Shown piece by piece: positions 33,670 through 53,198 of a stretch of 64,000 nucleotides of DNA. Each line of letters begins with the position of its first letter. Position 1 is the stretch's first letter. Source of the stretch: Sphaerisporangium siamense. GTDB lineage: Bacteria; Actinomycetota; Actinomycetes; Streptosporangiales; Streptosporangiaceae. The stretch spans positions 7,750,001 to 7,814,000 of the forward strand of contig NZ_JACHND010000001.1 of NCBI RefSeq assembly GCF_014205275.1, in the 5' to 3' direction. Position numbers and translations under genes: made by a program. The notes beneath the pieces were generated by a model that did no database searches, was not told where the DNA came from, and was given only the letters and a program-made list of their open reading frames with translations.

Positions 33670-34263
33670 TCAGCCCCTCCACCCGGGGACCGATACCCGC
33701 ATCGTCAGCGCGTGCTCCACCAGGGCGATCAGCGTGCCCTTGACCGACTCGCGCAGGCGCGCGTCGGTCTTGACGATCGGGATGTGCGGGGAGAGCGTGA
33801 GTGCGTCGCGCACCTCCTCCTCGGCGTAGGGGTGCTCGCCGTCCCAGCCGTTGAGGCCGATGACGAAGGGCAGCTTCGCCTCCTCGAAGTAGTCGATGGC
33901 GGGGAAGCTGTCGGCCAGGCGCCGGGTGTCGACCAGGACGACGGCGCCGATCGCGCCGCGTACCAGGTCGTCCCACATGAACCAGAACCGGTGCTGGCCG
34001 GGGGTGCCGAAGAGATAGAGGATGAGCTCGGTGTCCAGCGACACGCGGCCGAAGTCCATGGCCACGGTGGTGGTGGCCTTCTGCGGGATGAGGCCCAGGT
34101 CGTCGATGCCGGCGCTGGCGTCGGTCATGACCGCCTCGGTGGTGAGCGGGACGATCTCGGAGACCGCCCCGACGAAGGTGGTCTTCCCCACGCCGAAGCC
34201 GCCCGCGACGACGATCTTCGTCGACGTGAGCGTCCCGCCGCGGCTAGAGCCTGCGAAGTCCAC
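33670..34263 (-). CDS. cvnD: Conservon small GTPase CvnD (conservon 1)
   Basis: This 197-residue GTP-binding protein of the conservon family has P-loop GGFGVGKTTFVGAVSE near residue 22, DFGRVSLDTELILYLFGTPG (switch II with DTELILYLFGTPGQ) and the base-contact region VIGLNGWDG. It starts with GTG inside the end of cvnC, overlapping it by 20 bp; AAAGGG upstream of the GTG is the ribosome binding site. It differs from the other two copies at several core positions (for example IPQKATTT against TPNKTTTT). It is the output GTPase of the complex. Confidence 0.94.
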   Translation of the reverse strand: MDFAGSSRGGTLTSTKIVVAGGFGVGKTTFVGAVSEIVPLTTEAVMTDASAGIDDLGLIPQKATTTVAMDFGRVSLDTELILYLFGTPGQHRFWFMWDDLVRGAIGAVVLVDTRRLADSFPAIDYFEEAKLPFVIGLNGWDGEHPYAEEEVRDALTLSPHIPIVKTDARLRESVKGTLIALVEHALTMRVSVPGWRG

Positions 34264-34636
34264 TGAGAACCCTTTCGAGCAGGTTGAAGTCCGGCTGTCC
34301 CGCGTCCAGCTGCGGGTGGTGCAACTGGACGAATCCCTCGGCGGCCATGTCCGAGACGAGAACCCGCGCCACGCCGAGGGGGACCCTCAGCAGGGCCGAG
34401 ATCTCGGCGACCGAACGCACCTGGCGGCACAGCGTGATGATCGCCTGGTACTCCGGAATCAAGCCGGAAATATCTTGATAAGGAGGAATAGTGGAATGCA
34501 CCAGCGTCTCCATGGCGAGGTGCGACCGCGGCGCCGAGCGCCCGCCCGTGACCGTGAAGGGCCGGACCGGCGAAGAGGGTTCCTGTTGGTAGGGCCGTAA
34601 ACCGTCCTCCCAGCCCGGACCTCCCATGGACGTCAC
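34244..34636 (-). CDS. cvnC: Conservon DUF742 protein CvnC (conservon 1)
   Basis: This 130-residue DUF742 protein has a Pro/Arg-rich start (RPFTVTGGRSAPRSHLAMET) and a winged-helix-like domain, ITLCRQVRSVAEISALLRVP followed by LGVARVLVSDMAAEGFVQLH. The final residues RVLSGLRRL coincide with the cvnD start. It starts in a 4-bp overlap with cvnB. It may be a DNA-binding or adaptor partner of CvnB and CvnD. Confidence 0.93.
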   Translation of the reverse strand: MTSMGGPGWEDGLRPYQQEPSSPVRPFTVTGGRSAPRSHLAMETLVHSTIPPYQDISGLIPEYQAIITLCRQVRSVAEISALLRVPLGVARVLVSDMAAEGFVQLHHPQLDAGQPDFNLLERVLSGLRRL

Positions 34637-35055
34637 CGCGGAGACGACGCCTGAAGCTCGGCGCGCACGGCCGGTGTCAGCACCTGACCGGCACGCTCGA
34701 CCATCAGCGTCATCTGGTAGGCGACCAGACCCATGTCACAGTCCGGCGCGGCGAGCACGGCGAGGCAGGAGCCGTCGCTGACCGACATGATCAACAACAG
34801 CCCGCGCTGCATCTCCACCACGGTCTGGGTGACGGGGCCGCCCTCGAAGACGCGGGAGGCGCCCTGCGTCAGGCTGATCAGGCCCGCGGCCACCGCGGCG
34901 AGCTGGTCGGCCCTGTCCTTGGGGAAGCCCTCCGAGTAGGCCAGTGGCAGCCCGTCGGAGGACACCACCACCGTGTGCGCCACCCCCGGCACCGACCGGA
35001 CGAAGTCGGTGATCAGCCAGTTGACTCCGCGGGCCGCCTGACTCAGCTCTCTCAC
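34633..35055 (-). CDS. cvnB: Conservon roadblock/LC7 protein CvnB (conservon 1)
   Basis: This 140-residue roadblock/LC7 protein has NWLITDFVRSVPGVAHTVVV, SDGLPLAYSEGFPKDRADQL and LLIMSVSDGSCLAVLAAPDC, matching MglB-like regulators of small GTPases. It overlaps cvnA by 4 bp and cvnC by 4 bp. It probably forms a dimer that controls CvnD nucleotide state, by analogy with MglB. Confidence 0.94.
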   Translation of the reverse strand: MRELSQAARGVNWLITDFVRSVPGVAHTVVVSSDGLPLAYSEGFPKDRADQLAAVAAGLISLTQGASRVFEGGPVTQTVVEMQRGLLLIMSVSDGSCLAVLAAPDCDMGLVAYQMTLMVERAGQVLTPAVRAELQASSPR

Positions 35056-38000
35056 TTGTCCTCCTTATCGCCCTGGGCGCGGCGTGGGTCGCCGTACGCC
35101 ACCTCGTCCTCGCTGATCTCGCCGCGTGCGACCGCCCGGCCCTGGCGGATGCCCTGCTGGAAGCTGGACAACCGGCTTCGCGCCCGGTCGGGCGAGAGGG
35201 CGGGCATGGCGGGAACGGGCGAGGTTGCGGCCTCGGCCGCCGAGGCGGACCCGGGCACCAGATTGGCCTTCGGAACCCGCTTGGGCAGACCGGCGGTGGT
35301 GGTCCCGTCCCGTACGGGCTCCTTGACCACGGCCGCGGCCTGCCAACCGGCGTCGGCGGGGTTCTGCCGCCAGACGCCGGTGTCCTCCTTCTCCTCCTGG
35401 GCCGGGTCCGCGCGGCGGAACCAGGCGGACTCGACGGAAGCGAAGATGGGCAGGAACTCCTCCTCCTGTTCCATCGGGGACGGCCGCACGGCCGGCAAGG
35501 GGCCGGTGACGGCGTCGAGGTCAGAGGCGTCGAAGCGGCGGGACCTCGGGCGGGGCACCGGGTCGGCGGCCGGGCCGGTGGGAGGACCGCCGTAGGCGCC
35601 CGCGGACGGGCCGCCGAACAGGCTCGGGCCGGCGGCGGAGCCTCCGGACAGCGGGCCGCCGAACGCGTCGAGGTTCGCCGCCTGCTCCCCCGCGCCGGTC
35701 GCCGCCGCCGGGGGCGCGCCGAACGCGGACGGCCCGCGGCCCGGGGCGTCGAACGTCCCCGCGACCGGCTCGCCGAACGCGCCCGTGTCACCGAAGGAGC
35801 CGGTATCGCCGAAGGCGCCCGTGTCACCGAAGGAACCGGTGTCACCGAACGCGCCCGTCTCGCCGAAGCCGCCGAGGTTCCCGGACGCGGGCCCGGAGAA
35901 GCCGCCGGAGGACGGGCCGGAGAAGCCGCCGCCGGTGGTCGGCCCGAGCGGCCCGGTGCCGGCCGTGCCGTTGGACCCGCCGAAGGGGCCGGTGGGAGAG
36001 CCGAACAGGGAGGCGGCCTGCGCGTCGAACGCGGCTCCGCCCTGGGACGCCGAGGCGAACAGGCTGCCGCCGGTCTGTCCCCCGGTCCACGCCGACGCGC
36101 CCGCGCCGGCGAGCGCCTGCCCGGAGGCGCCGCCCTGCGCCGGGCCCGCGGCGGAGCCCATGAGCGCCTCGGGCAGCAGCACCATCGCGGTCAGGCCGCC
36201 GGAGTCGTGCCGCCTGAGCTGCACCCGGATGCCGTTGCGCAGCGCGAGGCGGCCGACCACGAACAGGCCCATGCGGCGTGACACCGACACGTCCACGACC
36301 GGCGGGTTGGCCAGCCGCCAGTTGGTCTGGGTCAGTTCCTCCGGGGTCATGCCGATGCCGGCGTCGGTGATCGAGATCATGACGCCGCCGCCGTCGATGC
36401 GGTTGGCCGTGAGGGTCACCCTGGTCTCGCGCGGGGAGAACGAGATGGCGTTCTCGACGAGCTCGGCGAGCAGGTGGATGAGGTCGTTGACGGCCTGGCC
36501 GACGATGGAGACCCCGGTGGGGACGTTCATGGCCACGCGCTCGTAGTTCTCGACCTCGGAGAGGGATGCGCGGGCGACGTCGAGCAGCGGGACGGGCTGG
36601 CTCCAGCGCCGCGCGGGCTCCTGGCCTGCGAGGACCAGCAGGTTCTCGCTGTTGCGGCGCATGCGGGTGGCGAGGTGGTCGAGCCGGAACAGGTCGCCGA
36701 GACGCCGGTCGTCCTGTTCGCCCTGCTCCAGGCCGTCGATCAGGGTGATCTGCCGCTCCACCAGGGTCTGGGTCCTGCGGGAGAGGTTCACGAACATGGC
36801 GCTGACGTTGCTGCGCAACTGGGCCTCGTCGCTGGCGAGCCTGACCGCCTCGCGGTGGACCTCGTCGAAGGCGCGGGCGACCTCACCGACCTCGTCGTTG
36901 GACATGACGCCGATGGGAGCGACCTCGGGCGGGCCCGTGGTGCCGTCCGACTCGCGGAGCTTCTGCACCAGTTCGGGGAGCCTGCGCCCGGCGATGTCGA
37001 GGGCGCCGCCGCGCAGGCGGCGCAGCGGGATGACCAGCGAGCGGGCCATGACGGCGGTGATGGCGAGGACGATGAGCAGGAGCACGACGACGGCGGCGAT
37101 GTTGACCACGGCCTGGCGCTGGTCCTCGCGGGCCAGCTCGGCGGCCCTGTCGACGATCGCGCGGCTGAGCGTGCGCTGCACGTCGTGCATGCGGTCGAGC
37201 CGCTCGCTGGAGGCGTCGAACCAGCCGGTGACGTCGTCGGCGCCGTTCCCGAGCCCGGCGAGCGGCTGGTTCTGGCGGGTCAGCTCAAGTGCGCGGTCGA
37301 TCTGGGCGGCGGCGACGTCGATCTTCGGGCCGGTGACGGTGTCCTGGTAGGTCTGGCCTTCGGTGAGGGTGGCGCGGAAGAAGAACGCCTGCAGTTCGCT
37401 CTCCTGCCGGGCGCGCGCGGCGTTGAAGGCGTCCAGTTCCGCGGGGCTGAAGCGCCCGCCGATCAGGCCGATGCTCAGCAGGCCGCGCTGGCGCGACGCC
37501 TGCTCGGCGGCGCGGGTGAGCGAGGCGAGGGCCGAGGCGCTGGCCTCCAGGCCCGAGTCCGTGCCTCCCCTGGCGGTCTCGTCGAACATGGCGAGCACGT
37601 CGTCGATGGCCGTGGAGTACTTCTGCAGCGTCGGCAGCGCGGGAAGCTGGGAGTCGGTCACGGTCTGACGCAGGGACCGCAGCTGGGCCAGCCGGTCCAG
37701 CAGGCGCGCGAAGGGCTGGCGGCCGCTGTCGCGCAGGGCGGACTCGACCGTGCTCCTGTGGCCGAGCACGAGCTGGATCTGACCGTCGACGGCGCTCTGC
37801 TGGTCGCGCAGGAGCTGCCGGATCTGGTTGCCGTGGCGGCCGTTCGCGACGAACCGCACGGAGACGTCGCGTTCGAGGTCGAGCTGGTGGGCGAGATCGC
37901 CCAGGGTGGTCACGAACTGTGCCACCGTACGGACGCGCTCGTACTCGGTCGCGCTCTGGATCGAGGTCACCACCCGGAGGCCACCGAGCAGGGCGGCCAT

Positions 38001-38171
38001 CGTGGTGGGAACCAGGATGAGCGCGAGGAGCCGGGTCCGTACCCGCCAGTTGCGCAGCGCGAGCCGGCTTCCCGACGTACGGCGCGGGGCCGCGGCCGTG
38101 TCCTTGGTGGAAGGCGTTCGGTCTGCGTCCGGCTCGGTACGGCGACCGCTCTCGATTGTTGCTGTCCTCAC
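35052..38171 (-). CDS. cvnA: Conservon sensor histidine kinase-like protein CvnA (conservon 1)
   Basis: The protein is 1,039 residues from the GTG at 38171; GAGAGG 10 nt upstream supports this start over a longer frame. It has a TM helix near 47-66, an extracellular nitrate/nitrite-sensing-like helical domain to about 350 (LDLERDVSVRFVANGRHGNQ), TM2 near 355-380, a HAMP-like linker, the kinase-dimer region (LFRLDHLATRMRRNSENLLV) and a HATPase domain (N box ELVENAISFSPRET, G box DAGIGMTPEEL). A disordered tail of about 350 residues carries a repeated GAFGDTGSFGDTG motif. No receiver domain or response regulator is nearby. It is the first gene of the conservon. Confidence 0.92.
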   Translation of the reverse strand: MRTATIESGRRTEPDADRTPSTKDTAAAPRRTSGSRLALRNWRVRTRLLALILVPTTMAALLGGLRVVTSIQSATEYERVRTVAQFVTTLGDLAHQLDLERDVSVRFVANGRHGNQIRQLLRDQQSAVDGQIQLVLGHRSTVESALRDSGRQPFARLLDRLAQLRSLRQTVTDSQLPALPTLQKYSTAIDDVLAMFDETARGGTDSGLEASASALASLTRAAEQASRQRGLLSIGLIGGRFSPAELDAFNAARARQESELQAFFFRATLTEGQTYQDTVTGPKIDVAAAQIDRALELTRQNQPLAGLGNGADDVTGWFDASSERLDRMHDVQRTLSRAIVDRAAELAREDQRQAVVNIAAVVVLLLIVLAITAVMARSLVIPLRRLRGGALDIAGRRLPELVQKLRESDGTTGPPEVAPIGVMSNDEVGEVARAFDEVHREAVRLASDEAQLRSNVSAMFVNLSRRTQTLVERQITLIDGLEQGEQDDRRLGDLFRLDHLATRMRRNSENLLVLAGQEPARRWSQPVPLLDVARASLSEVENYERVAMNVPTGVSIVGQAVNDLIHLLAELVENAISFSPRETRVTLTANRIDGGGVMISITDAGIGMTPEELTQTNWRLANPPVVDVSVSRRMGLFVVGRLALRNGIRVQLRRHDSGGLTAMVLLPEALMGSAAGPAQGGASGQALAGAGASAWTGGQTGGSLFASASQGGAAFDAQAASLFGSPTGPFGGSNGTAGTGPLGPTTGGGFSGPSSGGFSGPASGNLGGFGETGAFGDTGSFGDTGAFGDTGSFGDTGAFGEPVAGTFDAPGRGPSAFGAPPAAATGAGEQAANLDAFGGPLSGGSAAGPSLFGGPSAGAYGGPPTGPAADPVPRPRSRRFDASDLDAVTGPLPAVRPSPMEQEEEFLPIFASVESAWFRRADPAQEEKEDTGVWRQNPADAGWQAAAVVKEPVRDGTTTAGLPKRVPKANLVPGSASAAEAATSPVPAMPALSPDRARSRLSSFQQGIRQGRAVARGEISEDEVAYGDPRRAQGDKEDK
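35769..35879 (-). repeat. Tandem repeats encoding the CvnA1 GxFGDTG tail
   Basis: Near-tandem 18-bp units (such as CCCGTGTCACCGAAGGAG) encode repeated GDTGSF/GAF residues in CvnA of conservon 1. Several neighbouring copies are nearly identical, so length variation by slippage is expected. Confidence 0.65.
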
Positions 38172-38605
38172 TGGTCGCAACCTCTCGCCGGCTGGTCTGC
38201 GTAGGGGTGGACGCACTTGACACCTGTGACGCGTGTCAAGTGATGGGCAATCGGTGCATAAGCCTACGAGTACCGCCAATACCCGTGAGTGTTTGGACCG
38301 TTCCAAGAAATTATTCCCTTTTTGGAATGAGATTCGGTCATCCACCACAAGGTCACGTCGCCAGTCAGCGGACGTTACGGTCACATCACCGGCAAAGAAG
38401 CATTTATACCGTTCCAGGACACCAGACGCAGACATCGACTCGCATCAACGCCCAAAGTGGACTTTTTTACGAGTTTCATGACATAGGCCGCATATGTATG
38501 TTAGCGCCGATCTTCCTCCGCTAAGCTTCACGCCGCCGTGCCGGAAACCGCTCCGCGAGCACGTGGCTCGGCCTTCTTCCCCCCCACAACTAAAAGGACA
38601 CCTCA
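38172..38605. other. AT-richer divergent region between cvnA and the ABC importer operon
   Basis: This 434-bp divergent region is clearly AT-richer than its surroundings and holds no gene. It contains the 29-bp inverted repeat at 38214-38242, a second inverted pair TTCCAA/TTGGAA (38301-38306, 38322-38327), and two copies of CCGTTCCA (near 38298 and 38411). A weak plus-strand -10 candidate, TATGTT, is at 38497-38502. Both divergent promoters must lie here. Confidence 0.55.
38214..38242. promoter_or_regulatory. Perfect 10-9-10 inverted repeat upstream of cvnA
   Basis: CACTTGACAC (38214-38223) and GTGTCAAGTG (38233-38242) are perfect inverted arms around CTGTGACGC, 43 bp upstream of the CvnA1 GTG. 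Each arm contains a TTGACA-like -35 box in opposite orientation. It may be an operator or an RNA stem in the leader. Confidence 0.6.
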
Positions 38606-39586
38606 ATGACACGCTTTAGGGGTCGTACCTTCATCGTCGGCGTGGCCGCGATCCTGGCGCTAACAGCGTGCGGCGGTGGATCGGACACCAGTTCGAGTAC
38701 AGCCGGAGGGCTGGAGAAAACCACGGTCACCCTCGGCGCCATGCCCATCGCCGACGTAGCGGGACTGTACATCGCCATCGAAAGGGGCTTCTTCAAGGAA
38801 GAAGGCCTGACGGTGAAGCCCAAGATCATCAACAATGGGGCCGAGGCGCTCCCGCAGCTTCACAGTGGAGCCCTCGACGTCATCATCGGAAACTATTTCA
38901 CGTTCCTGTCGGCGACGGAGAGGAGTAACGACAAGTTCCGCTTCATCGCCGACATCTACCAGTCCAAGCCCGACGTCTTCCAGATCGTCGTGCCAAAGGA
39001 CTCCACCGTACAGACTGTCAAGGACCTCAAGGGCAAGAGGATCGCCATCGCCTCGCTTAACAGCATCGGCGAGCTGGCCGTCGCCAACGCCCTGCGCACC
39101 GCCGGACTCCATCCGCGCGAGGACGTGAAGTGGGTGCCGATGCCCTTCCCCCAGATGCCCGCCGCGCTGAAGAACGGCTCCCTGGACGCCCTCTGGCTCA
39201 CCGAGCCCTTCCTCACCGGCGTCCAGCAGGAGCAGGGCGCGCGCAAGGTCACCGACACGATGACCGGAGCGATGGCCGACTTCCCGATCGCCGGCTGGGT
39301 CACCTTGGACGAGTGGACCCGGAAGTATCCCAAGACGATGGCCGCGCTCCAGCGGGGCCTGCTCAAGGGCCAGCAGATCGCGGCCTCCGACCGTAAGGCC
39401 GTCGAGAAGGTCCTCCCGACCTACACACAGATCAAACCCGAGGTCGCGTCGGTCATCACCCTGGGATCGTTCCCGACCACGCTCACCTCGACCCGCATCC
39501 AGCGCGTCGCCGACCTGATGCAGGAGTTCGGGTACCTGACCAAGAAGCTCGACGTCAAGCCGCTCCTGGCTCCGCTCCCGCAGTGA
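38606..39586 (+). CDS. ABC transporter substrate-binding lipoprotein (SsuA/TauA/THI5-like)
   Basis: This 326-residue lipoprotein has signal FIVGVAAILALTACGGG with lipobox cysteine near residue 22. VTLGAMPIADVAGLYIAIER, FFKEEGLTVKPKIINNGAEA and GALDVIIGNYFTFLSA are hallmarks of the NMT1/SsuA-like periplasmic-binding fold used for sulfonates, taurine, nitrate and related small compounds. AAAGGACA precedes the ATG. It is followed by two permeases with overlapping ends. The actual ligand cannot be determined from sequence. Confidence 0.9.
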   Translation: MTRFRGRTFIVGVAAILALTACGGGSDTSSSTAGGLEKTTVTLGAMPIADVAGLYIAIERGFFKEEGLTVKPKIINNGAEALPQLHSGALDVIIGNYFTFLSATERSNDKFRFIADIYQSKPDVFQIVVPKDSTVQTVKDLKGKRIAIASLNSIGELAVANALRTAGLHPREDVKWVPMPFPQMPAALKNGSLDALWLTEPFLTGVQQEQGARKVTDTMTGAMADFPIAGWVTLDEWTRKYPKTMAALQRGLLKGQQIAASDRKAVEKVLPTYTQIKPEVASVITLGSFPTTLTSTRIQRVADLMQEFGYLTKKLDVKPLLAPLPQ

Positions 39587-40356
39587 CCCGCCGCAGAGTG
39601 GCCCGCGGCGCCACCGGCGTCGCGGTCCTGCTCCTCGCCGCCGAGCTGGCCGGGCGCACCGGCCTGGTCGACCGTTCACTGATCCCCCTGATCTCGGAGA
39701 TCCTCGCCCGCGCCGCCGGGCTGGTGGTGGACCCCCTCTTCCTGGCCGACCTCCAGGGCACTCTGGTCGTCTGGGCGACCGGGCTGCTGGTCGCCGTCGC
39801 CATCGCCGTCCCCCTCGGCCTGTTCCTCGGCACCCTCCGGCGCGCGGAGCTGGCCGCGCGCCCGCTGGTGGAGTTCCTGCGGCCCATCCCGTCGGTCGCG
39901 CTCCTCCCCCTCATCGCGCTGCTGGTCCCGGACGACGCCGGCATCAAGATCACCGCGGTCGTGTACGCCGCCGCCTGGCCGGTGCTCGTCAACACCATGT
40001 ACGGCCTGCGCGACGTGGACCCGGTGGCCAAGGAGACCCTGCGCAGCTTCGGCTTCGGACGCCTGGCCGTGCTCATGCGGGTCTGCCTGCCGAGCGCGGC
40101 GCCGTTCGTGCTGACCGGAGTGCGGCTGGCCACGGCGATCGGGCTGATCGTCGCGGTCAGCGCCGAGCTCATCACCGGCGGCACCGCGGGGATCGGCACC
40201 TTCATGATCCGCGCGGGGTCGGGGATGCGCACCGACCTGGTCCTGGCCGCCGCCCTGTGGGCCGGGATCCTCGGGCTCGTGGCCAACGCCCTGCTGCTGA
40301 AGGCGCAGCGCCTGGCGTTCCGCTGGCACGCGGTGACCGCGGAGGCCGCCACATGA
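39583..40356 (+). CDS. ABC transporter permease (Ssu/Tau-like), first
   Basis: This 257-residue permease starts with GTG overlapping the binding protein by 4 bp. TVVWATGLLVAVAIAVPLGL-like helices (here TLVVWATGLLVAVAIAVPLG), VEFLRPIPSVALLPLIALLV and the EAA region KETLRSFGFGRLAVLMRVCL, continuing PSAAPF, match SsuC/TauC-type permeases. Six helices are predicted. It probably forms a heterodimer with the next permease. Confidence 0.9.
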   Translation: MTRRRVARGATGVAVLLLAAELAGRTGLVDRSLIPLISEILARAAGLVVDPLFLADLQGTLVVWATGLLVAVAIAVPLGLFLGTLRRAELAARPLVEFLRPIPSVALLPLIALLVPDDAGIKITAVVYAAAWPVLVNTMYGLRDVDPVAKETLRSFGFGRLAVLMRVCLPSAAPFVLTGVRLATAIGLIVAVSAELITGGTAGIGTFMIRAGSGMRTDLVLAAALWAGILGLVANALLLKAQRLAFRWHAVTAEAAT

Positions 40357-41192: not shown

Positions 41193-41201
41193 GGAATCAC
41201 C

Positions 41202-41984: not shown

Positions 41985-42036
41985 GCATGCCCCCGCCCGG
42001 CTTCCCCCCGGGCCGAACCCCACGTCTGGAGTGCAC

Positions 42037-44146: not shown

Positions 44147-44569
44147 TCACCGGGGTTGTGACGCCTGGAGCTCGGCGCGCACGGCCGGGGTCAGCACCTG
44201 ACCGGCGCGCTCCACCAACAGCGTCATCTGGTACGCCACCAGGCCCATGTCACAGTCGGCCGCGGCGAGCACGGCGAGGCAGGACCCGTCGCTGACCGAC
44301 ATGATCATGAGCAGCCCCCGCTGCATCTCGACCACGGTCTGGGTCACCGCCCCGCCCTCGAAGACGCGGGAGGCGCCCTGGGTGAGGCTGATCAGCCCGG
44401 CGGCCACCGCCGCGAGCTGGTCCGCCCTGTCCTTGGGGAATCCTTCCGAGAAGGCCAGGGGCAACCCGTCAGCCGACACCACGACCGTGTGAGCCACGCC
44501 AGGGACGTTGTTCACGAAGTCGGTGATCAGCCAGTTGACGCCACGGGCCGCCTGGCTCAGCTCCCTCAC
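44147..44569 (-). CDS. cvnB: Conservon roadblock/LC7 protein CvnB (conservon 2)
   Basis: This 140-residue roadblock protein is nearly identical to CvnB of conservon 1 over most of its length (NWLITDFVNNVPGVAHTVVV, FPKDRADQLAAVAAGLISLT, LLMIMSVSDGSCLAVLAAAD). It overlaps cvnA by 4 bp. The high similarity of CvnB copies 1 and 2 contrasts with the closer CvnD pairing of copies 2 and 3. Confidence 0.94.
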   Translation of the reverse strand: MRELSQAARGVNWLITDFVNNVPGVAHTVVVSADGLPLAFSEGFPKDRADQLAAVAAGLISLTQGASRVFEGGAVTQTVVEMQRGLLMIMSVSDGSCLAVLAAADCDMGLVAYQMTLLVERAGQVLTPAVRAELQASQPR

Positions 44570-47500
44570 GTGTCCTCCTTGTTGCGTTCACCGATTCCAT
44601 TGGCGGAATGGTCGTCGTTGTTCTCGCCCTTGGCGACGGCCCGGCCTCTGCGCACGCCCTGCTGGAAACTGGACAGCCGGCTGCGCACCCGGTCGGGCGA
44701 CAGGGACGGCTGGGGCGAGGAGAAGACGGACGGGCCCGGCTCGGCGGAGCCGGGCACGAGGTTCGCCTTCGGCACCCGCTTGGGCAGGCCGGACGAGGTG
44801 ATGCCGCCGAGCGAGGGGTCGCTCGCCGCCTGTGCCGCGCGCCAGCCGACGTCCCCGGGAGAGGACCAGGCGCGCGAGTCCGCCCCCGGCCGGGCGAGCG
44901 CCGCCGGGGCCTCCTCCATGGCGCCGTACCCGTCGTCCTCAGGCACGGGCATCGCCGTCTCCTTCTGGGCCGGCTTGGCGGCCGGATCCGGGTCGTCCGT
45001 GCGCCGGAACCAGTCGGACTCCACAGCCGCGAAGATCGGCAGGAACTCCTCCCCCGCCTCGTCCAGCGGGGAGGTGTGGACGGCCGGCAGCGGGCCGGTG
45101 TGGTCCATGTCCGGCACGGCCCCGAAGGTGCGTGCCCTCCTGTCCAGCGGGCCGGTCGCCGGGCCCGTCGCCGGGCCGCCTCCGGTGGCGGGCCCGGTGA
45201 AGCCGCCGCCGAAGCCGCCGGTGGGAGGCCCGCCGAAGCCGCCGGACGGCGGGCCGGCCGGGCCGCCGGTCACGGGGCCGGTGTGGCCGCCGGAGACGCC
45301 GCCCGGGACCGGGCCGGTGTGGCCGGTGGACGGGATGGCGGGCCAGGACGCGGTGTCCTGGTCGGCGAGGTCGGGCCAGGAGTCCTTGGTGCCTCCGGGC
45401 GGGGGGACCTCCGCGGGCCACGGGGTGTCGAGCGGCGGGTTGGGGTTGAAGAACCGCTCGAACGGGTCCTGCTCGCCGGGCTCGTCCTTCTGGAACGGCG
45501 CGCCCGGCGCCTTGTCGGAGCCCTGGCCCGGCGCGGTGAACAGGTCGCGCTCCGGGCGCTCGAACCCGCCGGCGGGCGCCGGGCGCTCGAAGGGATCGCG
45601 TTCGAAGGGGCCGCGCTGGAACGGGCCCCGGTTGACCGGGCCGGGCCCGGCGGAGACGCCGGGGTCGTCGGCGCCGAAGACCGGCGCGCGCATGCCGCGC
45701 GAGCCGGACGCGTCGAAGGCGGAGGGAGCGCCGCCGAACCCGGGGGCGCCGCCGAACTGCTGCCCGGTGGTGGGCTCGGCCGCGGGCATGCCCGCGTACT
45801 GCGGCGCGCCCGGCGCCGACAGCAGGGATTCGGGCAGCAGCACCATGGCGTTCAGGCCGCCGGCGTCCTGCTGGCGGAGCTGGACGCGGATGTTGTGGCG
45901 CAGCGCGAGGCGGCCGACCACGAACAGGCCCATGCGGCGGGACACCGAGACGTCCACGACGGGCGGGTTGGCGAGACGCCAGTTGGCCTCGGCGAGCTCC
46001 TCGGCCGACATGCCGATGCCGCTGTCGCTGACCGAGACCATCATGCCGCCGCCGTCGATGCGGTTGCTCGACACCACGACCTTGGTCTCGCGCGAGGAGA
46101 AGGAGATGGCGTTCTCGACGAGCTCGGCGACCAGGTGGACGATGTCGTTCACGGCCTGGCCGACGATCGCCGTCCCCGAGGGGACGCGCAGGTCTACCCG
46201 CTCGTAGTTCTCGACCTCCGACAGCGCGGCGCGGACGATGTCGACGATCGGCACCGGCTGGCTCCACCGGCGCGCGGTCTCCTGACCGGCGAGGACCAGC
46301 AGGTTCTCGCTGTTGCGGCGCATGCGGGTGGCGAGGTGGTCGAGCTTGAACAGGTTGGCGAGACGGTCCTCGTCCTGCTCGCCCTGCTCCAGGCCGTCGA
46401 TGAGGCTGAGCTGGCGTTCCACCAGGGTCTGGCTGCGGCGGGAGAGGTTGACGAACATCGCGTTGACGTTGCTGCGCAGGCGGGCCTCGTCGCCCGCCAT
46501 GCGGACCGCTTCGCGGTGGACCTCGTCGAAGGCCCGCGCGACCTCGCCCATCTCGTCGCGTGAGGTGACGCCGATGGGGACGACCTCGGTGGAGGCGTCG
46601 GCGCTGGCGCGCAGCCGCTGGACGGTCTGGGGCAGGCGGACGCCGGCGATCTCCAGCGCCTCGGCGCGCAGCCGGCGCAGCGGCCGGATCAGGGAGGTCG
46701 CCACCACGGCGGTGATGAGGAGGACGACGAGCAGCAGCACCAGGATGACGGCGCCGGAGATCACCGCTTGACGCTGGGCGTCCTCCTGCAGCGTCCGGCT
46801 CTGCTCCACGACCGAGCCGATCATGCGCTCTTCCACCGTGCGCATGCGGTCGGCGGCGGCGGAGGTGGAGGTGTACCAGAGAGTGGTGTCGTCGCGGCGG
46901 GTCAGGTCGAGGTCGCGGACCTCCTTGAACTGGCGGAGCTGGGCGAGCGCGAGCGCGCGCATCCAGTCGGCCTTGTCGACCTGCTGGCCGCGGACGGTGG
47001 AGTTGTAGAACTTGACGTCCTCCGGCGACGCCTCGGCGAAGAACGTGGCGAGCTGGTTCTCCTGGCGGCTCCAGGATCCGGGGAAGTCGACGAAGTCGTC
47101 GTAGGTGAACCCGCCGCCCGGGGTGCCGCGGGTGGCCAGGGCCACGGTCATGATGCCGCGCTGCCGGGCTACCTCTTCCTTGGCGCTGCTGAGGGCGGCC
47201 AGGGCGATGCTGTCACCGAACAGGCGCTGGTCCTGGCCGGAGGCGCCGAGCTCGCTCTGCATGGAGCCGAGCACGGTGACGATCCGGGAGTACATACCGA
47301 GCGCGGCCCGCGGGGGCACGGAGGCGTCCTGGACGATGCGGGACCTGAGACCGGGCAGACCGTCCAGCCAGCGGCGGATCTGGTCGGCCTCGGCGCGGAC
47401 GCGGGCGGTGTGGGAGTCGTCGATGGCGGCGACCGCGGTGAGAACCGGCTGCCGGGCCTTGTCGACGACGTCCTGCTGGGCGCGCACCTTCTTGAAGCGC

Positions 47501-47832
47501 GCCGTGCGGCGGCCTTCGGCGATGTACCACGCCGTCAGGTCGCGTTCCTTGTCGATCTCGTGGATCAGCACGTCGAGCTTCTGCACGAGCGTGGCGACGT
47601 CGGTGATGCGCCGGTAGTCCGCCGACGTGCCGACGGCGTCGGCGAGCTGCACACCGCCGAGCGCGACGCCGACCAGCGTCGGGATGATGATGAGGGCCAC
47701 GAGACGTGATCGGACGCGCCAGTTCTGAAGCCTGAGCCGGCTACCGGCCTTGAGTGTCCGCGGCATGGTCGGGCCGGACCGCTCCGTACGGCCCCCTCGA
47801 CCTGGGTTGTCCCCAGGGTCTTGTGGTCTCAC
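44566..47832 (-). CDS. cvnA: Conservon sensor histidine kinase-like protein CvnA (conservon 2)
   Basis: The protein is 1,088 residues from the GTG at 47832, chosen by analogy with conservon 1; both have GAGAGGTTGCGA just upstream. TM1 is near residue 44-62 (RLVALIIIPTLVGVALGG), an extracellular NIT-like domain follows, and TM2 is near 364. The kinase core has LFKLDHLATRMRRNSENLLV and ELVENAISFSSRETKV with DSGIGMSAEEL near 575-615. The C-terminal ~400 residues are Pro/Gly/Phe-rich and probably disordered. It lacks a linked response regulator. Confidence 0.92.
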   Translation of the reverse strand: MRPQDPGDNPGRGGRTERSGPTMPRTLKAGSRLRLQNWRVRSRLVALIIIPTLVGVALGGVQLADAVGTSADYRRITDVATLVQKLDVLIHEIDKERDLTAWYIAEGRRTARFKKVRAQQDVVDKARQPVLTAVAAIDDSHTARVRAEADQIRRWLDGLPGLRSRIVQDASVPPRAALGMYSRIVTVLGSMQSELGASGQDQRLFGDSIALAALSSAKEEVARQRGIMTVALATRGTPGGGFTYDDFVDFPGSWSRQENQLATFFAEASPEDVKFYNSTVRGQQVDKADWMRALALAQLRQFKEVRDLDLTRRDDTTLWYTSTSAAADRMRTVEERMIGSVVEQSRTLQEDAQRQAVISGAVILVLLLVVLLITAVVATSLIRPLRRLRAEALEIAGVRLPQTVQRLRASADASTEVVPIGVTSRDEMGEVARAFDEVHREAVRMAGDEARLRSNVNAMFVNLSRRSQTLVERQLSLIDGLEQGEQDEDRLANLFKLDHLATRMRRNSENLLVLAGQETARRWSQPVPIVDIVRAALSEVENYERVDLRVPSGTAIVGQAVNDIVHLVAELVENAISFSSRETKVVVSSNRIDGGGMMVSVSDSGIGMSAEELAEANWRLANPPVVDVSVSRRMGLFVVGRLALRHNIRVQLRQQDAGGLNAMVLLPESLLSAPGAPQYAGMPAAEPTTGQQFGGAPGFGGAPSAFDASGSRGMRAPVFGADDPGVSAGPGPVNRGPFQRGPFERDPFERPAPAGGFERPERDLFTAPGQGSDKAPGAPFQKDEPGEQDPFERFFNPNPPLDTPWPAEVPPPGGTKDSWPDLADQDTASWPAIPSTGHTGPVPGGVSGGHTGPVTGGPAGPPSGGFGGPPTGGFGGGFTGPATGGGPATGPATGPLDRRARTFGAVPDMDHTGPLPAVHTSPLDEAGEEFLPIFAAVESDWFRRTDDPDPAAKPAQKETAMPVPEDDGYGAMEEAPAALARPGADSRAWSSPGDVGWRAAQAASDPSLGGITSSGLPKRVPKANLVPGSAEPGPSVFSSPQPSLSPDRVRSRLSSFQQGVRRGRAVAKGENNDDHSANGIGERNKEDT

Positions 47833-48028
47833 TGGTTTTCGCAACCTCTCACCGGGCCTGGCGTTTCAGGGGGGTACGTCACGCGCGAGGCGCATGAGAC
47901 GTCCGAGACATCCATCAGGCGAGGGTTAATTGGAGCACACCCTTACCAGATCGGCCAACAGCACATACAGCTACAAATCTCCCCAAACAAGGCTTCTAAG
48001 GGATAAATCGCCCGCGTCGCTTCCGTAA
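47833..48028. other. cvnA upstream region (conservon 2)
   Basis: This AT-richer 196-bp region lies between cvnA and the ALDH remnant. On the minus strand TTGTTT and TATGTG are separated by 17 bp and form a weak promoter candidate near 47950-47980. No coding sequence is seen. Confidence 0.4.
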
Positions 48029-48402
48029 CTATGCGGGACGAAATCCGTCACGTCCCTCCGGAGCCGCGTATTCGATCATCAGATCGCGTGCGACGGAGCA
48101 CTCCCGGCGCACGTCCCCGCCGGGGCCGCCGCCCTCGACGCCGCCGCCGAGGCGAGGGAACGATGATCGTTCACCCAGGTCACGCCCACGTCGCACCGGT
48201 GCGGCACCCGCGGCGCCCCGCGAGACGTCCCGCGACAGGACCGGCGAGGCCAGGGCGTACGGGGTGTCGTTCGCCGGCCGCACGGCCTCGATCTTCGCCG
48301 GAAAGCGGCAGCACGACGATAACCGGGCCGAAAACCTCGTCCCGCGCTATGTCGCTCCCCTGCGCGGGGTCCGGCACGGCGGGCGCCGTGCCGGAGCCGG
48401 CC
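48029..48402 (-). pseudogene. Aldehyde dehydrogenase remnant (C-terminal part, frameshifted)
   Basis: Reading the minus strand from the cvnD stop, SDIARDEVFGPVIVVLP (about 48328-48350) is an ALDH motif. After one frame change, EAVRPANDTPYALASPVLSR continues the family alignment; after a second, CDVGVTWVNDHRSLAS matches the family GxVWVN segment. No single frame spans them, and the N-terminal two-thirds with the catalytic cysteine and glutamate is missing. The order and spacing fit the last ~110 residues of an ALDH, including the region resembling the dehydrogenase at 4507-5940. It is a decayed fragment, apparently not expressed as an enzyme. Confidence 0.75.
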
Positions 48403-48993
48403 TCAGTTCGTGCGGCCGTAGACCGACCTGAGAGTGAGCACGTACTCGACCAGCGTGATCAGTGTGGACTTCACCGCGTCCCTGGACCGGGCGTCGGTGC
48501 GCACGATCGGGATGTGCGGAGCGAGCGTGAGCGCCTCGCGGACCTCCTGCTCGGCGTGCGGGTAGTGACCGTCCCAGCCATTGATGCCGACCACGAACGG
48601 GAGCTGGGCCTCCTCGAAGTAGTCGATCGCCGGGAAGCAGTCGGCCAGGCGCCGGGTGTCCACCAGGACGACCGCGCCGATGGCGCCCCGCACCAGGTCG
48701 TCCCACATGAACCAGAACCGGTGCTGACCGGGCGTGCCGAACAGGTACAGGATCAGGTCCTGGTCCAGCGAGAGCCGGCCGAAGTCCATCGCGACCGTGG
48801 TGGTGGTCTTGTTCGGAGTCAGCCCCAGGTCGTCGATGCCGGCGCTGGCGTCCGTCATGACCGCCTCGGTGGTCAGCGGGAGGATCTCCGACACCGCCCC
48901 GACGAACGTGGTCTTCCCCACGCCGAAGCCACCCGCGACGACGATCTTCGTCGACGTGAGCGACCCGCCGCGGCTAGAGCCTGCGAAGTCCAC
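48403..48993 (-). CDS. cvnD: Conservon small GTPase CvnD (conservon 3)
   Basis: This 196-residue GTPase has GGFGVGKTTFVGAVSE, DFGRLSLDQDLILYLFGTPG and VVGINGWDGHYPH. It ends in VLTLRSVYGRTN, a C-terminus unlike the other two copies (MRVSVPGW, MRVAVPGWG), so the last residues may have been replaced where the ALDH remnant now adjoins. It overlaps cvnC by 20 bp. Confidence 0.93.
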   Translation of the reverse strand: MDFAGSSRGGSLTSTKIVVAGGFGVGKTTFVGAVSEILPLTTEAVMTDASAGIDDLGLTPNKTTTTVAMDFGRLSLDQDLILYLFGTPGQHRFWFMWDDLVRGAIGAVVLVDTRRLADCFPAIDYFEEAQLPFVVGINGWDGHYPHAEQEVREALTLAPHIPIVRTDARSRDAVKSTLITLVEYVLTLRSVYGRTN

Positions 48994-49336
48994 TGAGAAC
49001 CCTTTCGAGCAGGTTGTGGTCTGGTTGTCCCTGGTTAAGCCGCGGCAGATGCAGGCGAACCAGACCTTCGTCGGCCATGTCGGCGATCAGCACGCGGGCC
49101 ACGCCGAGCGGCACCCGCAGCAACGCGGAGATCTCCGCGACCGAACGAACGGAGTGGCACAACATGATGATCGCCTCCTGCTCTGGGGTGAGCAGGGACA
49201 AATCATCATTCATTATCGGGGCGGACGAGACGAGTGTTTCCATCGCGAGGTGGTAACTGGGCTCGGCGCGGCCCCCGGTGACGGCGTAGGGACGGAAGAG
49301 AGGTTCGTCCTCGGTTCCGTCACCCCCCAGCATCAC
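48974..49336 (-). CDS. cvnC: Conservon DUF742 protein CvnC (conservon 3)
   Basis: This 120-residue DUF742 protein, MMLGGDGTEDEPLFRPYAVT then HSVRSVAEISALLRVPLGVA and VLIADMADEGLVRLHLPRLN, is the shortest CvnC here. It overlaps cvnB by 4 bp and cvnD by 20 bp. Two adjacent ATG codons begin the frame. Confidence 0.92.
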   Translation of the reverse strand: MMLGGDGTEDEPLFRPYAVTGGRAEPSYHLAMETLVSSAPIMNDDLSLLTPEQEAIIMLCHSVRSVAEISALLRVPLGVARVLIADMADEGLVRLHLPRLNQGQPDHNLLERVLSGLRRL

Positions 49337-49755
49337 CGGATCCTGGAGGTCTGAAGCTCAGCGCGCAGGGCCGGGGTGAGCACCTGGCCCGCGCGCTCGA
49401 CCAGCAGGGTCATCTGATACGCGACCAACCCCATGTCGCAGTCCGGGGACGCCAGCACCGCGAGGCAGGAGCCGTCGCTGATCGCCATCACCAGCAGGAT
49501 GCCGTACTGCATCTCGACGACCGTCTGCGTCACCCCGCCGCCCTCGAACACGCGCGAGGCCCCCGCCGTGAGGCTCAGCAGACCGGCCGCCACCGCGGCG
49601 AGCTGGTCGGCCCGGTCGGCGGGGAACCCCGCCGAGTTGGCCAGCCTGAGTCCGTCGGCCGATACGACGACCGCGTGCGCCACGCCGGGTGTCCCGCTGA
49701 CGAACTCCGTGATCAGCCAGTCGAACCTGCGTGCCTCGTGACTCAGCTCAATCAC
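49333..49755 (-). CDS. cvnB: Conservon roadblock/LC7 protein CvnB (conservon 3)
   Basis: This 140-residue roadblock protein is more divergent than the other CvnB copies (MIELSHEARRFDWLITEFVS, LRLANSAGFPADRADQLAAV, ILLVMAISDGSCLAVLASPD). It overlaps cvnA by 4 bp. The core alpha/beta pattern and the GVTQTVVEMQ segment are kept. Confidence 0.94.
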   Translation of the reverse strand: MIELSHEARRFDWLITEFVSGTPGVAHAVVVSADGLRLANSAGFPADRADQLAAVAAGLLSLTAGASRVFEGGGVTQTVVEMQYGILLVMAISDGSCLAVLASPDCDMGLVAYQMTLLVERAGQVLTPALRAELQTSRIR

Positions 49756-52700
49756 GAACCCTCCTCCTCAGCCCGGCCGCCGTCGGCGCCGGCTCCTTCA
49801 CTGTCACGCGCGGTGGCCTGCGAGATGTCCGCCCGGCCGCGCCGGATGCCCTGCTGGAATCGGGACATCCGCGCCCGCACGAGATCGGCGGAGACGTCCG
49901 CGCGGGGAGCGGGCGTCGTCGGCTTGGGCTGTGGCGCCGCGCCTCCCACCGACCCCGGCACGAGGTTGGCCTTCGGCGTGCGCTTCGGCAGACCTGCCGC
50001 CGTGATGCCCCCCATGGCGGGATCCTTCACCGCGTCGGCGGCCCGCCATCCGGTGTCCGCCTGCGAGCCCCACGCCGGCGCCGCCGGCTCCGGGCCCGGC
50101 TCGGGGGGCGCGGTCGCGGGGACGGACTCCTGTGGTTCCTCCCGCACCCGCTCCCGCGAGGCGGTGACCTCACCGGCGTCGGGACGGCGGAACCACGCGG
50201 ACTCGACGGCGGCGAAGATCGGCAGGTACTCGTCCCCCTGCTCCAGCGGCGACTCGCCGGAGGCCGTGCTTCCCGGGTTCCCGGTGCTCCCCGTGCTCCC
50301 CGTGCTGCCAGAGGTCCTGATGGTCCCCTTGCTCCCCGTCCCGGTGATCCCCGTGCCGGGGTTGCCCGTGCCCGGGCCGGCCGTACCGGGGGTCCCCGTT
50401 CCCGCTCTGCTCGCGGCGATCCCCGCGCCTCCCGGGACACCGCTGTTCCCCGGACCGCCCAGACGTGCCGGACCGCCCGGACGCCCCGGACCGTTCAGGT
50501 TCCCCGGACCGGGTCTTCCCCGGTCGGCGGGCACCGGCCTGGTCGGCAGGGGCGGCAGCGGCGCGGCGGGGGGCGTCGTGTCGGGCGCGGGGGAGGTAGA
50601 AGGGTCGGTCGAGGGTCCCACGGGCCCGAAGACGGGGCCGGTGTTCGACGGCGCCTCGAACGGCGAACGCTGCCGCGCCGGTCCCGTAGCGGGACCCACC
50701 GGACCGGTCCCCGGACCGAGCGGACCCGTACCCGGGCCGACCGGGCCCGTGCCGGGACCGAGGGGACCCGTGCCGTGACCGGTCGGACCGGTACCCGGGC
50801 CGACCGGACCCGTGCCGGGACCGAGGGGACCTGCGCCGGAACCGACCGGACCCGTGCCCGAGCCGAGCGGCCCGGTCCTGAGGGGCCCGGTGCCGGGGCC
50901 GATCGGGCCGGTGCCGGAGCCGACCGGACCGGTACCGGAGCCGACCGGGCCAGTGCCCGAACCGAGCGGGCCGGTGCCGGTCGTGGGGCCCGACGCGCCG
51001 GAGAAGCCGCCGGACAGCGGCCCGGTGGGCGTGGGCTCGCCGAACGGGGCGAGCCTGCCGCCGAACGTGGACGGCGCCCCGGGGCCGCCGACGGACGGCG
51101 CGGACGCCCCGTCGTTGTAGCCGCGGGCCCCGCCGAGCGCCGGGCCGGTGTCCCCCGCGCCGGGCGCGGGGGCGCGTCCGGGCACCACCGAGATGAGCTG
51201 GGGCGGGAACAGGACCATCGCGATCAGCCCGGAGGAGTCGCCCCTGCGGAGCTGGACGCGGATGCCGTGCCGCAGGGCGAGGCGGCCGACCACGAACAGG
51301 CCCATGCGGCGCGACACCGACACGTCCACGACGGGCGGGTCGGCGAGCCTGCGGTTGATGTCGGCGATCTCCTCCGGCGTCATGCCGATGCCGGCGTCGC
51401 TGACCGCCAGCAGCGCGCCGCCGCCCTCGATCATGCTGCTGGACACGACGACGCGCGTGTTGCCCGGCGAGAACGCGAGGGCGTTCTCGACCAGCTCGGC
51501 GACCAGGTGGACCACGTCGTTGGCGGCGTGCCCGGCGACGGCGGCGCTGCGGTGGACCTTGACGTTCACCCGCTCGTAGTCCTCGACCTCCGACAGGGAG
51601 GCGCGCACGACGTCGACGAGCTTGGCGGGCTGGCTGCGCTTGCGCGTGGCCTCGTGCCCGGCGAGGACCAGCAGGTTCTCACTGTTGCGCCGCATGCGGG
51701 TGGCGAGGTGGTCCAGCTTGAACAGGTCGGCGAGCCGCCCGCCGTCCTGCTCGCCGCGCTCCAGGCCGTCGATGAGGGAGATCTGCCGCTCGACCAGGGT
51801 CTGGATGCGCCGGGACAGGTTGACGAACATGGCGTTGACGTTGCCGCGGAGCTGGGACTCCTCGGCGGCCAGGCGCAGGGCCTGGCGGTGCACCTCGTCG
51901 AACGCGGTGGCGACCTCGCCGATCTCGTCGTGGCTGCCGATGAGGATCGGCTGGACGTCGGGGGCGTCGGTGGCGTCGCCGGACTCGCGCATGCGGCGCA
52001 CGACCGCGGGCAGGCGGAACCCGGCGATCTCCAGCGCCTCGGAGCGCAGCCGGCGCAGCGGCCTGACCAGCGAGCGGGCGATGAGGACGGTGGTGGTGAG
52101 GACGAGCACGACGAGGGCGAGGATGAGCACGGCGGCGATGATGGCGTTGCGCCGTTCGCCCGACTCCAGCACCGAGGCGCGCGCGGCCAGCGACTCCGAG
52201 ACCCGTCCCTCGACCTGGCGCAGCAGGTCGATCGTCTTGGTGATGTCGTCGAACCACTGCCTGACCGACAGGCCGCGTCCTCTGGCGTCCTGGATCGCCA
52301 GGTTGCGGCTGGCCAGCGCGATGGCCCATGACTTGGTCAGTTCGGCGCGCACGACCTGGGTGCCGCGCAGGGTCTGCGCGAGGTAGCGGCCGTTGTCGGC
52401 GCCGGCCTCGGCGTTGAAGGTGGTCATCGCGGCCCGCTGCCGCGACCGTGCGGCGATGAAGTCCTCAAGGGTGTCGGACGTGAACCGCTGCTGGCGCAGC
52501 AGGGTGCCGATCAGCATGCCGCGCTGCTGGGACGCCTCTTCCTTGGCGTGGGCCAGGGCGCTGAGGCCGCGGGCGTCGCCGACCAGCTCGGGGTCCTCGC
52601 CCATCTGGGTGATCTCGTCGTGCAGCCGCAGGATCGACGCGATGAGGTCGGTGTACTTGGGCGGCTGGTTGCCGGCGCGGATGACGGGGAGCTGGTCCAG

Positions 52701-53198
52701 GCGGTGTCCGACCTGGAGGGCCGCCTCGGCGGCGCGCAGTCCGTAGCCGTCGTCGATCTCGGCGAGATCCTGCCGCACGGTCGCGATCCCGGCGTCCACG
52801 GCGCGGCGCTGTTCCTCCAGGGCCGTCGCCTGCTGACGGGTCACGCGACTCCAGATGCCCATGTCGCGTTCCAACCCCAGCTGCATGCCGAGGTCGCGCA
52901 GATGGCCCGCCATCACGGCCTCCGCGGCGTTGCGCTGGTAGGCGGCGACGCTGTCGATCGCCGTGACGACACGCAGGCTCGCGAGCAGCACACCGACGAT
53001 CGTGGGCACCAGGATGAGCGCGGTCAGGCGCGTGGGCACGCGCCAGTTCCCCAGCGACAGACGGGATGAATTGCTCCGCCCGTGCTGCCCCCCGCCGGAC
53101 CCCCCCGGGCCGCTGGAACGCTTGTGTCGCTTGGCCCTCAGGCCGTCCCCCGCTCCGGCGAGGAGTGTGGACTTGATCTCGGTATCCGCTGTGCTCAC
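49752..53198 (-). CDS. cvnA: Conservon sensor histidine kinase-like protein CvnA (conservon 3)
   Basis: The protein is 1,148 residues from the GTG at 53198 (MSTADTEIKSTLLAG), with GGGGGGTGG upstream; a longer frame to 53369 is unlikely. TM1 is near residue 59 (LTALILVPTIVGVLLASL), an extracellular sensor-like region follows, and TM2 is near 359. The kinase-like part has LFKLDHLATRMRRNSENLLV and ELVENALAFSPGNTRV with DAGIGMTPEEI. A repeated GTGP-rich section fills about residues 730-840, and the rest of the tail is low complexity. It is the first gene of conservon 3. Confidence 0.91.
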   Translation of the reverse strand: MSTADTEIKSTLLAGAGDGLRAKRHKRSSGPGGSGGGQHGRSNSSRLSLGNWRVPTRLTALILVPTIVGVLLASLRVVTAIDSVAAYQRNAAEAVMAGHLRDLGMQLGLERDMGIWSRVTRQQATALEEQRRAVDAGIATVRQDLAEIDDGYGLRAAEAALQVGHRLDQLPVIRAGNQPPKYTDLIASILRLHDEITQMGEDPELVGDARGLSALAHAKEEASQQRGMLIGTLLRQQRFTSDTLEDFIAARSRQRAAMTTFNAEAGADNGRYLAQTLRGTQVVRAELTKSWAIALASRNLAIQDARGRGLSVRQWFDDITKTIDLLRQVEGRVSESLAARASVLESGERRNAIIAAVLILALVVLVLTTTVLIARSLVRPLRRLRSEALEIAGFRLPAVVRRMRESGDATDAPDVQPILIGSHDEIGEVATAFDEVHRQALRLAAEESQLRGNVNAMFVNLSRRIQTLVERQISLIDGLERGEQDGGRLADLFKLDHLATRMRRNSENLLVLAGHEATRKRSQPAKLVDVVRASLSEVEDYERVNVKVHRSAAVAGHAANDVVHLVAELVENALAFSPGNTRVVVSSSMIEGGGALLAVSDAGIGMTPEEIADINRRLADPPVVDVSVSRRMGLFVVGRLALRHGIRVQLRRGDSSGLIAMVLFPPQLISVVPGRAPAPGAGDTGPALGGARGYNDGASAPSVGGPGAPSTFGGRLAPFGEPTPTGPLSGGFSGASGPTTGTGPLGSGTGPVGSGTGPVGSGTGPIGPGTGPLRTGPLGSGTGPVGSGAGPLGPGTGPVGPGTGPTGHGTGPLGPGTGPVGPGTGPLGPGTGPVGPATGPARQRSPFEAPSNTGPVFGPVGPSTDPSTSPAPDTTPPAAPLPPLPTRPVPADRGRPGPGNLNGPGRPGGPARLGGPGNSGVPGGAGIAASRAGTGTPGTAGPGTGNPGTGITGTGSKGTIRTSGSTGSTGSTGNPGSTASGESPLEQGDEYLPIFAAVESAWFRRPDAGEVTASRERVREEPQESVPATAPPEPGPEPAAPAWGSQADTGWRAADAVKDPAMGGITAAGLPKRTPKANLVPGSVGGAAPQPKPTTPAPRADVSADLVRARMSRFQQGIRRGRADISQATARDSEGAGADGGRAEEEGS
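50680..51000 (-). repeat. GTGP-encoding tandem repeat in CvnA of conservon 3
   Basis: Degenerate units on the forward strand of the type CCGACCGGACCCGTGCC(C/G)G encode repeating G(S/P)GTGP(V/L)GP residues, more than a dozen in a row. The array has local near-identical copies and is likely to differ in length among strains. It is in frame throughout. Confidence 0.75.

Follow-up and report, generated by a model that had tools for sequence, protein, structure and literature searches.

The glnD-ffh conservon island of Sphaerisporangium siamense and related Streptosporangiaceae

Three conservons between glnD and ffh

Three conservons, sets of the genes cvnA, cvnB, cvnC and cvnD, follow one another on the minus strand at positions 33670-53198 of a 64,000-nucleotide stretch from Sphaerisporangium siamense (hereafter the window; positions 7750001-7814000 of contig 1 in a genome of 8.5 Mb on two contigs). 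A preliminary description, made from the sequence alone, had read three full cvnABCD sets here, and Pfam confirms all twelve genes, with the order cvnA-cvnB-cvnC-cvnD on one strand in every set. The sets, which we number from ffh, fill an island whose boundaries are glnD, coding for PII uridylyltransferase (53372-55714), and ffh (SRP54; 31998-33551), both on the minus strand. By Pfam, the genes upstream of set 3 are amtB (ammonium transporter; 56054-57379, minus strand), glnB/glnK (PII protein; 55719-56057, minus strand) and glnD, and those downstream of set 1 are ffh, rpsP, rimM and rplS. A gap of 173 bp separates glnD from the likely start of cvnA3, and the end of set 1 lies 118 bp from ffh.

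The glnD-proximal set 3 comprises cvnA3 (49752-53198), which codes for a sensor kinase with NIT, HAMP and HATPase domains, cvnB3 (49333-49755; roadblock/LC7, PF03259), cvnC3 (48974-49336; DUF742, PF05331) and cvnD3 (48403-48993; small GTPase, PF03029). Set 2 consists of cvnA2 (44566-47832), cvnB2 (44147-44569), cvnC2 (43656-44123) and cvnD2 (43079-43675), and the ffh-proximal set 1 of cvnA1 (35052-38171), cvnB1 (34633-35055), cvnC1 (34244-34636) and cvnD1 (33670-34263). The listed open reading frames of the three sensor kinases are longer (49752-53369, 44566-47844 and 35052-38435 for cvnA3, cvnA2 and cvnA1 respectively), and we place their likely GTG starts at 53198, 47832 and 38171; the first, which the preliminary description also gave, is judged by sequence, the second follows the GAGAGGTTGCGA leader common to sets 1 and 2, and the third is likewise putative. 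Genome-wide there are seven DUF742 (CvnC) genes and six Robl_LC7 (CvnB) matches, three of each being in the island. A second pair of conservons is seen in the same genome at about 845-852 kb of contig 1, its members about 6 kb apart and on opposite strands.

At the domain level, a sensor, a HATPase domain and the histidine of the DHp domain are present in CvnA (Pfam does not report HAMP in CvnA1), and a NIT domain (PF08376) is found in all three copies. Across the conservon islands described below, the DHp histidine is kept in 74 of 75 CvnA sequences. In the PDB, the CvnA1 sensor is matched best, though weakly (E 0.0035), by the NIT domain of NasR (4akk), and two arginines align; the positions aligned with these arginines of the NasR pocket hold arginine in 75/75 and 71/75 of the island CvnA. 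One of the two would be the second pocket arginine of NasR. CvnB, CvnC and CvnD are confirmed as roadblock, DUF742 and Ras-like GTPase proteins, and the CvnD translations carry the P-loop GGFGVGKTT; a PDB search with CvnD returned two weak matches, to Ras/Rab. The other arginine aligned with the CvnA NIT domain would correspond to R176 of NasR (PMC7496416). The C-terminal extension of CvnA contains GLPKRVPK or GLPKRTPK, and thus the LPxR motif described for this region (PMC4316618).

Between sets of this genome, identity is 46-52% for CvnA and 65-68% for CvnC, and 79-94% for CvnB and 84-90% for CvnD. The near identity of CvnB1 and CvnB2 in the preliminary description is borne out (93.6%, CvnB3 being 78.6% identical to each), as is the likeness of copies 2 and 3 in CvnD (D2/D3 89.7%, D1/D2 86.3%, D1/D3 84.2%). 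Within CvnA, a comparison over nine genomes of the genus gives 35-38% identity between sets for the sensor region and 70-80% among its orthologues; for the kinase core the figures are 71-81% and 92-95%. With the sensors diverged and CvnB and CvnD alike across sets, the pattern is one of differing inputs and a similar output.

Conservation of the island and descent of its sets

We searched 11 genomes of the genus and 61 genomes of the family, the latter from 60 genera. Two of the ten genus relatives (G005 and G008) were left out as their intervals are broken at contig ends; all eight others, in which the interval is unbroken, carry all three sets in their glnD-ffh interval, arranged as ffh - set 1 - importer - set 2 - block - set 3 - glnD (the importer and the block are described below). 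Beyond the genus, 17 genera have glnD of at least 80% identity, and intervals were taken from 16 of them, G035 being omitted because its glnD and ffh lie on separate contigs. Counts that depend on ffh exclude G005, G008, G013 and G060, whose intervals stop at contig or stretch ends. Sets were counted from the glnD-to-ffh intervals, ignoring tblastn matches shorter than half the query; a gene that seems absent from a set may be diverged instead. On this basis, all 14 other genera whose interval reaches ffh have two to three complete conservons, or two to four counting incomplete ones. The gaps between sets range from 0.1 to 14 kb across these 14 genera, with flips and losses; in G068 the last kinase of the island is inverted. 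Incomplete sets by tblastn include the first set of G066 (B and D only) and the last set of G014 (A and C only; loci L049 and L052-L054 in these two intervals), as well as the second sets of G067 and G053 (A and C only).

At all of the best 80 of 141 loci, glnD is followed first by a cvnA match on its own strand, which begins 29-338 bp past the glnD match; amtB and glnB were not seen at one of these loci, L125, which lies on a short contig. Among the matches listed, glnD is found at E 0.001 in 42 of the 61 family genomes. Seven of the genomes examined, whose glnD is 61-68% identical, lack a conservon between this gene and ffh; by coordinates, the two genes look adjacent in G024 and G036. A further side observation is that 24 of the 61 (e.g. 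G031, G033, G040 and G048) have no glnD match or a weak partial one among the matches listed, which suggests that PII uridylyltransferase may have been lost in part of the family.

What can be said of the age of the sets? In a CvnA tree of 76 rows and 688 columns, with other loci from the same genome as outgroup, all 26 glnD-proximal rows, cvnA3 among them, form one clade (SH-aLRT 100), and 21 of the 23 ffh-proximal rows group together, those of G032 and G068 falling elsewhere. The sensor-kinase tree therefore follows position, and the duplications predate the genera. The middle sets are spread over at least two lineages, and for this reason four sets were probably present in the ancestral island, three of which would have been kept by this genus. 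In trees of all rows, the glnD-proximal set is one clade for CvnB and CvnC, though with few columns, and also for CvnD except in G066, while the other sets mix.

Genes and elements between the sets

The gap between sets 1 and 2 holds an importer of the ATP-binding cassette (ABC) type and an O-methyltransferase on the plus strand (38606-43044), both predicted in the preliminary description and confirmed by Pfam. Divergent from cvnA1 is the gene for a solute-binding protein (38606-39586; NMT1_2, PF13379, of the SsuA/TauA/NrtA superfamily, with NCBIfam matches below cut-off and a PDB profile search in agreement), followed by two permeases (39583-40356 and 40257-41192; the listed frame of the second overlaps the first, and its true start is probably later), an ATPase nearest to the ntrCD, SaoA and TauB models but below their cut-offs (41202-41984), and an S-adenosylmethionine-dependent O-methyltransferase (Methyltransf_2; 42031-43044). 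Attempts to name the substrate via NCBIfam or the PDB failed, with matches below cut-off or weak. The earlier view of the importer as embedded cargo has to be given up: it sits between sets in 11 of the 14 other genera (in G019, G022 and G038 in a different arrangement and at lower identity), a distribution that rules out random cargo and makes the importer part of the island. The O-methyltransferase is between sets in seven of the 14, and among the eight genus relatives it is absent from G006.

The gap between sets 2 and 3 has a different history. The aldehyde dehydrogenase (ALDH) remnant reported there is real (approximately 48032-48362, minus strand), being frameshifted and reduced to a C-terminal part, but it is the scar of a deletion rather than an inserted cargo. 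In the nearest relative, G004 (glnD 96% identical), numbered in the glnD-to-ffh direction, the 558-bp gap of S. siamense joins sequence matching positions 7288-7331 to sequence matching 16614-17165, so that about 9.3 kb are missing relative to G004. Between trimmed matches, this gap measures 8.7-10.1 kb in eight genus relatives and 0.7 kb here, and the deletion is seen in this genome but in none of those eight. What G004 retains is a block coding for a SIS protein, a glucosamine-kinase-like protein, a PotD-like binding protein, PotB- and PotC-like permeases, a PotA/PhnT2-like ATPase, a regulator-like gene (recognised by eye and unmatched in NCBIfam) and an MGT-type glycosyltransferase, after which ALDH stands directly upstream of cvnA2. 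The best NCBIfam models, PotD, PotB and PotC, are all below cut-off; the ATPase is best matched by PhnT2 and misses the potA cut-off with 355.5 of 355.6 bits, and the best PDB match is a spermidine/putrescine-binding protein (2e-39). A match to the ATPase of this Pot-type block precedes the middle set in all eight genus relatives and in G014, G015, G025, G053 and G067; full-length ALDH is matched in seven of the eight (not G007) and in G015, G025, G053 and G067, with a partial match in G014. The importer block of set 2 has thus been lost by deletion in S. siamense, leaving conservon 2 intact.

Non-coding sequence is conserved as well. An element upstream of cvnA2 (TTGG...TGTGCTCCAATTA; 47882-47966, minus strand), found with nhmmer, also occurs upstream of the ffh-proximal cvnA in relatives. 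Iterated nhmmer at E 0.01 matched the element 37 times, in 26 of 27 island genomes, with some weak matches (E near 0.01). A trimmed cvnA match begins 87-208 bp after 35 of them, and the other two precede sets whose cvnA is not matched in full (G008 and G068). A pattern derived from the element has one occurrence genome-wide at up to one mismatch and none in a reversed control; at the outgroup loci of this genome, which stop short of the region upstream of cvnA, the element is covered by this pattern search alone. Before cvnA1 a diverged copy can be recognised by eye (38245-38280, minus strand), which nhmmer does not report in this genome. The element offers a handle toward the regulator of the cvnA genes. 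Between glnD and cvnA3, an alignment of 22 genomes reveals a different block, GACCTTGTGGTCGAATT (53265-53281, minus strand), which is palindrome-like (GACC-TTGT-GGTC) and conserved in many of these genomes, departing in several genera. GAAAC-type repeats resembling the GlnR box consensus lie upstream of amtB (57514-57560), and the window scan lists no such near-box repeats between glnD and cvnA3. A consensus scan of 47600-57800 found no sigma-70-like site, and three terminator-like sites compared with 2.3 in shuffles.

Readings of the island and comparison with known systems

We favour, with confidence that is evenly balanced, the reading that the island is ancient and has been inherited vertically in a core clade of Streptosporangiaceae, and that its three NIT-type inputs, each beside a transporter, feed a similar G-protein output. 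Gene order, its conservation, the divergence of the sensors against the similarity of the output parts, and the retained kinase residues are direct observations. The ligands, read from the adjoining transporters, are inferred, as are the shared output and the nitrogen link. Each set would consist of a membrane-bound CvnA, acting as NIT sensor kinase, with the roadblock protein CvnB, the DUF742 protein CvnC and the small GTPase CvnD, and each CvnA may read a different small extracellular ligand tied to the transporter next to it: set 3 would be paired with the ammonium/PII genes, set 2 with the polyamine-type importer (in relatives), and set 1 with the NMT1-type importer. Ligand binding would alter the activity of CvnA and change the control of CvnD by CvnB, as GTPase-activating protein (GAP), and CvnC, as guanine nucleotide exchange factor (GEF), and the three CvnD may be alike enough to have a target in common. 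A more ambitious version, which we consider unlikely, is a three-channel hub for nitrogen and nutrient status, in which paralogous NIT sensor kinases in the membrane, tuned to differing nitrogenous nutrients and standing beside their own importers and AmtB-PII-GlnD, would converge on a single GTPase output, with gene conversion keeping its copies alike; this would give Streptosporangiaceae a G-protein layer over PII nitrogen control.

A number of points weigh against the island reading. Linkage is no proof of function because inertia can conserve gene order, and NIT domains need not bind nitrogen compounds, some being without known ligand (PMC13343842). The NMT1-type binding protein is under every NCBIfam cut-off (113.2 against 163.5 bits for SsuA_fam), and the cut-offs of the nitrate (NrtABCD), taurine or sulfonate families are also missed by the permeases and ATPase for the NCBIfam models shown. 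The importer is missing in three of the 14 genera and the O-methyltransferase in seven. Iterated nhmmer over the 27 island genomes gave no match to the cvnA2-type element before any glnD-proximal set and missed it before set 1 in four of nine genus genomes, this one included, and no outstanding GlnR-like site was found beside the cvn sets (31 matches in the window against 28 expected). Finally G048, which is without a strong glnD match, retains two CvnC genes directly upstream of ffh. Among the matches listed for the other genomes without strong glnD (22 of the 24 were examined), no CvnC gene adjoins ffh, which in G043 and some others of those 22 is near a contig end.

One alternative is that a lineage-specific tandem expansion near glnD and ffh has been kept by inertia, the sets acting on development or specialised metabolism unrelated to their neighbours. 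We regard this as quite possible, if short of probable. It accords with the G048 arrangement, with reports that conservon number tracks genome size and that antibiotic production and aerial growth are regulated by conservons in Streptomyces (PMC13343842, PMC8510531, PMC9739842), and with known tandem pairs, namely cvn1/cvn2 by gene numbering (PMC9739842) and adjacent duplicates (PMC4316618). Inertia sits less easily with an importer that stays in 11 of 14 genera despite gaps of very variable length, flips and losses, or with a cvnA that directly follows glnD at every one of the 80 best loci.

The preliminary description had instead suggested duplication of the array followed by gene conversion or shuffling between sets. 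Duplication stands, but is ancient; a recent event is refuted, and we consider this alternative very improbable. At fourfold sites, B1/B2 in this genome differ by 0.36 and A1/A2 by 0.35; since the silent divergence of the two pairs is equal, the likeness of CvnB1 and CvnB2 requires no conversion, and conversion of CvnB is dropped as a candidate. Shuffling is not seen in the genus because, in separate trees of the four genes from nine genomes, each position is monophyletic for A, C and D (set 2 with modest support in CvnD), and CvnB agrees except at set 2, which it does not resolve; with the CvnA tree of all rows, these trees rule out recent duplication and shuffling. For cvnD the case is different. 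Of the within-genome pairs, 37/71 fall below the 5th percentile of between-genera fourfold divergence, although the baseline is not clean, with cvnA (14/72), cvnB (19/72) and cvnC (5/77) also having pairs below their own 5th percentile; the comparison leaves out pieces below 85% of the query (B and D) or 60% (A and C), minus-strand pieces and pairs with fewer than 30 sites. When pairs are matched, divergence is lower than that of cvnA in 38 of 58 for cvnD, in just 12 for cvnB and in eight for cvnC. Runs of identical fourfold sites resembling conversion tracts occur in cvnD of G015, G001 and G007, and CvnD copies group by genome in G066 (s0-s2), G014 (s1, s2) and G068 (s1, s2). The three cvnD of S. 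siamense differ pairwise by 0.34-0.39 at fourfold sites, and therefore only short 5' tracts are suggested. Limited conversion of cvnD thus survives from the earlier proposal: silent sites suggest that it has been patchy in some genomes of the wider set, with short tracts at most in this one. A mobile or transferable cassette with cargo is very improbable and mobile elements find no support, as every clade interval examined has the island at one site, between glnD and ffh, CvnA subtrees are positional and the window yielded no tRNA, even though gap content varies by genus and one block is deleted here.

Input reception by conservon kinases is largely unexplored (PMC13343842), and NIT-type conservons beside amtB-glnB-glnD and specific importers provide concrete ligand candidates. 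The island is also a defined set of paralogues for asking if a single GTPase output can serve several sensors. The component parts and adjacent conservons are already known. A fixed island of conservons and importers between glnD and ffh, its conservation across the clade and the link of set 3 to amtB-glnB-glnD appear to be new: no glnD-linked conservon island was found in the titles and available text of open-licence PubMed Central papers, none of which was found to combine 'conservon' with 'gene conversion', and in the available text of PMC4595836 amtB occurs only within a reference. In Streptomyces coelicolor, guanosine tetraphosphate (ppGpp) represses six of 13 conservons and, separately, amtB-glnK-glnD is up without ppGpp (PMC2374992), effects that would fit a nutrient theme by analogy.

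Among known systems, the sets most resemble the NIT-type conservons (actinobacterial G protein systems, AGPS) cvn1-cvn6 of S. coelicolor, with which they share the cvnA-B-C-D order, NIT sensor, HATPase, DHp histidine, Robl_LC7, DUF742, Ras-like GTPase and the C-terminal LPxR (LPKR) motif. They differ from these in that several sets stand in a fixed glnD-ffh island with importer genes between them, and in that no accessory cvnE or cvnF gene directly follows the three sets. That conservons are usually dispersed singly holds only in part, as cvnA1 (SCO5544) and cvnA2 (SCO5540) of S. coelicolor are in tandem by numbering (PMC9739842), so that cvn1-cvn2, two adjacent NIT-type conservons by gene number, resemble the island; this cvnA1 is reported to affect antibiotics and aerial growth through SigU (PMC9739842). 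A membrane complex of CvnA-D with GAP/GEF control is reported for Cvn9 and Mfp (PMC13343842, PMC4316618), the CvnB homologue of Mfp being a GAP and its CvnC homologue likely a GEF, and CvnF8 stimulates autophosphorylation of CvnA8 (PMC13343842). Rv3364c of Mycobacterium tuberculosis, a CvnB homologue (9hef), is the best PDB match of CvnB1 (E 6.2e-41). NasR shares the aligned arginines of its NIT domain but is a NIT-ANTAR protein, and the identity of its ligand is not transferable. The importer between sets 1 and 2 belongs with the NrtABCD, SsuABC, TauABC and ThiY-type importers in the superfamily of its binding protein, permeases and ATPase, from which it differs in missing the NCBIfam cut-offs and in having two different permease genes.

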